NCBI GenBank assembly: GCA_037143175.1
Contig: JBAWZF010000003.1
Span: 1 to 64,000 of the forward strand
Direction of reading: 5' to 3'
DNA from: a bacterium
GTDB lineage: Bacteria; Verrucomicrobiota; Kiritimatiellia; CAIKKV01; CAITUY01
Length of the DNA stretch: 64,000 bases
The position numbers were made by a program, and so were the translations under genes. This document shows, piece after piece, positions 8,064 to 8,384 of the stretch. The notes below the pieces were generated by a model, which was not told where the DNA came from, did no database searches, and saw nothing but the letters and a program-made list of their open reading frames with translations. Position 1 is the stretch's first letter, and every line of letters starts with the position of its first letter.

Positions 8064-8147
8064 GGTTTCACCAAAAGTATTGATTAGACATTTGAGGACA
8101 TTAAATACGCCCGTGTCACTTAAAAGTCAATTGGGTGATATGGAAAA

Positions 8148-8260
8148 GTCAACGAGGAGGTGGGGGATGTTCGGCCATTACTTGCGGAGGAATAGCTGCG
8201 AGACATCTGCCACAGGGGGGTGTGGCATCATCAATGACACGCACCACCTCGCTCGTTGAC
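8148..8260. other. 113-nt three-way-junction structured element
   Basis: The ends pair as a 16-bp stem: 8148-8163 (GTCAACGAG then GAGGTGG) with 8244-8260 (CCACCTC then CTCGTTGAC), leaving one bulged G at 8251. Inside are two hairpins. One spans 8166-8207, pairing GATGT with ACATC, TCG with CGA, and GCCATT with AATAGC around an 11-nt loop. The other spans 8209-8226 (GCCACA, six G, TGTGGC). About 72 of 113 nt are paired. It is 84 nt upstream of the HTH-EIIA start, so it could be the 5' leader of the hyf-like operon (minus strand). It could equally be a small inverted-repeat mobile element. I match it to no known riboswitch or ribozyme. Confidence 0.6.
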
Positions 8261-8293
8261 GAGGCAGATCATTGCAAAATGCATTTTTTCATC

Positions 8294-8312
8294 AATCAGG
8301 GAGTCCCTGATT
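8294..8312. promoter_or_regulatory. Perfect 19-nt palindrome AATCAGGGA-N-TCCCTGATT, copy 1
   Basis: AATCAGGGAGTCCCTGATT has perfect 9-bp arms around a central G. It lies in the divergent region between the hyf-like operon and tetR. A single-base variant of the same palindrome is at 30131-30149. It could be an operator for a dimeric regulator or a dispersed repeat. An AAAATGCATTTT palindrome sits just to its left at 8276-8287. Confidence 0.6.
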
Positions 8313-8384
8313 GTTACATCAGGGTTTTCCACATGAATCGATCACCTCACATTTGGAATATTTTTCACTCCGATCGAGAAATCG

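Follow-up and report, generated by a model that had tools for sequence, protein, structure and literature searches.

A 113-nt element on the minus strand of the window (the whole 64,000-nucleotide stretch of DNA that was analysed) belongs to a probable sRNA family that has not been described before and that is restricted, among the genomes searched, to a single bacterial family in the PVC group. The sRNA family itself is new; its kind is already known. We consider it likely that positions 8148-8311 (minus strand) hold the complete gene of a multicopy, activator-controlled, trans-acting sRNA with Shine-Dalgarno-pairing loops. Such a gene would consist of an activator operator, a weak -10 box, and a transcript of about 115-120 nt whose 5' end falls on or close to the first base of the closing stem and whose 3' end is a run of T.

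The sRNA body (8148-8260, minus strand) is defined by its fold, by covariance-model matches in all nine family genomes, and by compensatory changes. The minus strand folds at -49.3 kcal/mol; dinucleotide-shuffled controls give -28.5 +/- 3.3 kcal/mol, and none of the 200 reaches the same stability (z -6.4), so that the earlier note was right to judge this much pairing unlikely by chance. The plus strand folds too, less strikingly (z -4.5). In the centroid structure, the closing stem P1 (16 bp, one base bulged) encloses two hairpins: this is the three-way junction proposed in the earlier note from the letters alone. The note also counted the hairpins correctly; its lengths of 14 and 6 bp were slightly off, the centroid having about 13 pairs and 7 bp. 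The 5' arm of P1, GTCAACGAGCGAGGTGG, lies at 8244-8260 and its 3' arm, CCACCTCCTCGTTGAC, at 8148-8163 (both minus strand). P2 (8208-8227, minus strand) is the 7-bp hairpin UGCCACA-CCCCCC-UGUGGCA, with its apical loop at 8215-8220. P3 (8166-8207, minus strand) is longer and irregular, with an outer stem GAUG/CAUC, read by eye across copies, an inner stem GCUAUU/AAUGGC, and the tip CU-CCGCA-AG. Its loop motif UUCCUCCGCAAG (8181-8192, minus strand) is nearly invariant among copies and contains CCUCC, a candidate anti-Shine-Dalgarno seed. When the other copies are predicted independently, a closing stem that encloses hairpins is found again.

The earlier note suggested a covariance-model search and a genome-wide copy count as checks, and both were informative. 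Blast finds five copies in the window's own genome (72-100% identity, the paralogues being divergent at 72-84%), and the covariance model adds a sixth (on C28). Across the family, the covariance search recovers 18 copies, 1-6 per genome, in 9/9 genomes, one of which is PVC group bacterium MiH-14oct19-80. Several copies occupy orthologous positions in different species: G000b/G003a/G004a, G000d/G004b, G003b/G005, and G007/G008. Outside the family, covariance model R2 has zero matches among the 337 further genomes of the class, and of 388 genomes sampled from the phylum three only have matches, all of them family members; these class- and phylum-scale scans used strict filters, while the order-level scan with model R1 was more permissive. 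One weak R1 match, in G009 (E 0.04), misfits in flanks and body and is absent with R2. A pattern scan across all genome contigs led to the relatives G003, G006, and G007, already family members; its two matches in Spirochaetaceae and Aquificaceae were set aside, as the sequence around them fails to align with that of the family. On the Spirochaetaceae contig (L017:3691-3726), a hairpin that looks perfect shares the TTCCTCCGCAAG loop and is otherwise unlike the family. Rfam gives no relevant match to any family for the window copy and eight other loci, in keeping with the earlier description of an unidentified structured element with no known riboswitch core, and we found no previous description in the open-licence literature. 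Integron attC sites and retron ncRNAs were considered as candidates and dropped on inspection.

The evolution of the copies is that of a conserved RNA structure, as expected of an sRNA gene. For 12 copies aligned with MAFFT, an alignment not fitted to structure, RNAalifold predicts 22 pairs, of which six have changed on both sides with pairing kept. In the model-fitted alignment of 18 copies, which leans towards structure, 94.8% of cells are paired, and there are 34 double-sided changes versus 10.8 in shuffled controls; sliding the partners by one base leaves no double-sided signal, or almost none. Three of the seven P2 pairs show double-sided change in alignment A7 and five in alignment A6, and the inner stem of P3 covaries in the model-fitted alignment. 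The earlier note had named compensatory changes as the mark of a structured RNA, and they appear on the MAFFT and the fitted alignments alike. The conservation of both apical loops exceeds that of the junctions and of the 3' strands of P2 and P3b: the C-rich loop CCCCCC of P2 is 91% conserved, and the P3 loop reads UUCCUCCGCAAG in most copies. The strand can be read from the mismatches. G-U cells (50) outnumber A-C cells (10), and since a G-U pair tolerated in RNA would read as A-C on the opposite strand, the RNA is assigned to the minus strand; the count is somewhat biased, because the folding model favours G-U. It is very improbable that the element acts at the level of DNA only, as protein-binding palindromes or a terminator without any RNA. 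The palindromes upstream are DNA sites in any case, but such a reading does not account for G-U being tolerated far more than A-C, nor for loops that stay conserved while stems covary. These comparisons indicate that the fold is real and that the element is a functional RNA, predicted to be transcribed from the minus strand.

The flanks of the RNA are organised as those of a gene. An AT-rich -10-like hexamer, AATGAT (8268-8273, minus strand), ends 7 nt before the element, and a promoter-proximal operator dyad, ATCAGGG-ACT-CCCTGAT in the minus-strand reading, lies at 8295-8311. A second, upstream dyad (8318-8334) is degenerate in the window copy. The general form ATCAG-N7-CTGAT is present or recognisable upstream of 15/18 copies, often as two in tandem, 22 bp apart. 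The distance from ATCAGG to the RNA start is 51-53 nt in nearly all dyad-bearing copies, the window's included; in G004d the motif is degenerate. Scores for -10 boxes upstream of the 18 copies exceed those of shuffles (p about 0.0005). The three dyad-less copies, G000e, G000f, and G002, have strong -10 boxes (6.9-7.1) whereas the others are mostly weak, a division that fits activator-dependent and constitutive promoters, respectively. From this geometry, we infer that a dyad-binding regulator would activate rather than repress. At the other end, a terminator-like T-run directly follows P1 (8144-8147, minus strand); it has four T only here, and the corresponding position is T-rich in most other copies, with no matching A-run on the 5' side. 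The runs are weak in G005, G003b, G006, and G007. The scan tool called neither promoter nor terminator at the window copy, because P1 closes a long junction and not a short hairpin. At the level of sequence, then, each RNA appears to have its own promoter, in the form of a -10 signal and an operator at a nearly fixed distance. With a predicted promoter and operator of its own in front, the element is most probably a free-standing RNA and not the leader of an operon.

The earlier note had placed the element in the leader of the hyf-like operon that begins with an HTH-EIIA gene (HTH_17 and PTS_EIIA_2 by Pfam), and this assignment is not supported. The operon has its own promoter, TTGACT-N17-TATTTA, which comes after the element and before the start codon of HTH-EIIA and is outside the sRNA gene: the -35 box TTGACT is at 8125-8130 and the -10 box TATTTA at 8102-8107, both on the minus strand with a 17-nt spacer. 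Five orthologues (L083-L087) keep the same promoter and have no element in front of the gene. A cis-acting leader or attenuator, riboswitch-like in action, would be expected in the 5' UTR of one consistent gene class. The neighbours of the copies are instead unrelated and include phosphofructokinase and CbiQ, an aminotransferase, and, read by eye, an ABC-type ATPase and a PTS enzyme I-like gene. For many copies there is indeed a gene on the same strand within 35-200 nt, a conserved membrane ORF of 44 aa lies behind three copies at +34 to +38, and the start of the next gene in G007 bears TGCGGAGGAA, to which the P3 loop is perfectly complementary. However, G000d, G008, and G001 have no nearby same-strand gene downstream, and T-runs stand between the RNA and the downstream sequence. 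Taken with the unrelated neighbours and the operon promoter that comes after the element, this makes a leader function quite improbable. As a separate observation, a GGACA...TGTCC-type inverted repeat at 8092-8131 (minus strand) overlaps the HTH-EIIA promoter and is conserved in the orthologues; possibly the HTH-EIIA protein autoregulates through it.

The complementary ends of the element had also led the earlier note to offer an inverted-repeat mobile element as an alternative. MITE/REP-type repeats are dispersed short palindromic sequences, and the element is likewise dispersed, short, and palindromic. Nevertheless, a non-autonomous element of this type with terminal inverted repeats is scarcely credible here. 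Target-site duplications of at least 2 bp flank 2/18 copies, with 1.97 expected by chance; the flanks are asymmetric; and positions are orthologous across species, where scattered, non-orthologous insertion sites would mark a MITE. The promoter and operator lie outside the supposed ends, and the operator is co-conserved with them at a nearly fixed distance. Copy number is low, the paralogues have diverged, plasmid and phage collections contain no match, and the copies have evolved by compensatory changes that preserve the loops.

The mechanism that we propose for the sRNA runs from the operator to the loops. A regulator would bind the 17-bp ATCAG-N7-CTGAT dyads, which stand in tandem with their centres about 43 and about 65 nt upstream of the RNA, and would thereby induce the RNA and signalling genes jointly. 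Once made, the RNA would use its C-rich apical loops, CCCCCC and UUCCUCCGCAAG, to pair with ribosome-binding sites rich in G on its target mRNAs, so that translation of these is blocked. The target-pairing step is the weakest part of this mechanism. The loop complement GCGGAGGA occurs before ATG about twice as often as its reversed control, an excess that ordinary Shine-Dalgarno enrichment explains equally well. The perfect complementarity of TGCGGAGGAA to the loop, in the gene directly after the G007 copy, is suggestive; this case was chosen post hoc among 18 copies.

A loop kept for binding a protein and one kept for pairing would look alike. The main rival to the pairing model is a multicopy sponge, in which CCCCCC and CCUCC would be sites for an RNA-binding protein that the RNA titrates, in the way that CsrB and RsmY act on CsrA. 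Several copies per genome, a loop motif repeated within each RNA, and a promoter predicted to be under regulator control would suit such a role. On the RNA strand, however, the loops are CCCCCC and UUCCUCCGCAAG and lack the GGA motif of CsrA sites; GGA occurs in loops only on the disfavoured opposite strand. Those opposite-strand GGA loops had prompted a CsrA-sponge reading, which the G-U/A-C count and the T-run led us to reject. We regard a protein sponge as unlikely, and prefer the trans-acting sRNA that pairs with Shine-Dalgarno sequences.

Redundant paralogous sRNAs under one signalling regulator are known from the Qrr sRNAs of Vibrio (LuxO/sigma-54) and from RsmY/RsmZ (GacA). The element likewise has redundant paralogues with a common predicted regulator. 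By inspection, no sigma-54 -24/-12 element of the Qrr type is seen at the element, and in contrast to RsmY/RsmZ, its RNA strand has no GGA (CsrA/RsmA) loops; it has no sequence in common with either group. The closest parallel at the level of mechanism is LhrC of Listeria monocytogenes, which has five copies, LhrC1-5, strictly dependent on LisRK; its promoter requires sequence upstream of -53, and the Shine-Dalgarno sequence is blocked by C-rich motifs that occur redundantly in loops and unpaired stretches (PMC4132741). Both RNAs are multicopy, about the same size, controlled by an upstream-acting regulator (here predicted), and equipped with C-rich loop motifs (PMC4132741). They differ in detail: LhrC is a two-hairpin RNA with CUCCC/UCCC motifs, whereas the element presents CCCCCC and UUCCUCCGCAAG loops within a three-way junction closed by the RNA ends, and its operator is the tandem ATCAG-N7-CTGAT dyad. 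By analogy, we propose that the element works in the same way as LhrC. A C-rich anti-Shine-Dalgarno motif displayed in loops is also a feature of RsaE and further sRNAs with a UCCC motif from low-GC Gram-positives (cited in PMC4132741). These differ from the element in structure and host lineage and are usually not multicopy with an operator in common.

Very few sRNAs are known from PVC bacteria: a 2022 survey lists eight distinct sRNA families for the group, compared to 345 for Proteobacteria (PMC9029176). The group thus gains an sRNA family for which paralogues, structure, promoter, operator, and regulon can be proposed from sequence. The best-known multicopy sRNAs that combine C-rich loops with control by a regulator come from Listeria and staphylococci, and the type may have evolved a second time in this distantly related group.

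The operator also extends beyond the sRNA. A genome has 5-23 matches to the tandem-dyad pattern and 0-2 to its reversed control, and the sites examined precede response-regulator receivers, kinases, and small membrane proteins. Judged by these positions, the dyad sites across the family genomes look like one regulon. In its clean form, the dyad reads ATCAGGG-N3-CCCTGAT, at loci such as L093, L096, L099, L104, L105, L069, and L074; the genes behind such sites encode Cys-rich single-domain response regulators, receiver/kinase proteins, and membrane proteins of 75-90 aa.

Two arrangements next to sRNA copies deserve mention. The 44-aa hydrophobic ORF (MIIxGGCxFxxGxFLT...) lies 34-38 nt after the copies at L047 (G004:C44), L049 (G004:C34), and L051 (G000:C28); these three are its only strong matches in the nine genomes, and differences between them fall mostly at third codon positions. 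The sRNA and the ORF possibly form an sRNA-micropeptide pair. In a bolder and rather improbable extension, two apical loops of the family-specific RNA would imitate the 16S rRNA at its anti-Shine-Dalgarno end, within one signalling regulon shared with stand-alone receiver proteins and with some copies coupled to the 44-aa peptide; if true, this would be an RNA-plus-micropeptide signalling module new to science. Elsewhere, directly after copy G000c, a response-regulator ORF is cut to 43 aa (L007:1150-1281, on G000:C3), and farther downstream a full-length relative (L007:2370-2759) adjoins a second sRNA copy. This arrangement looks like a duplicated and decayed unit.
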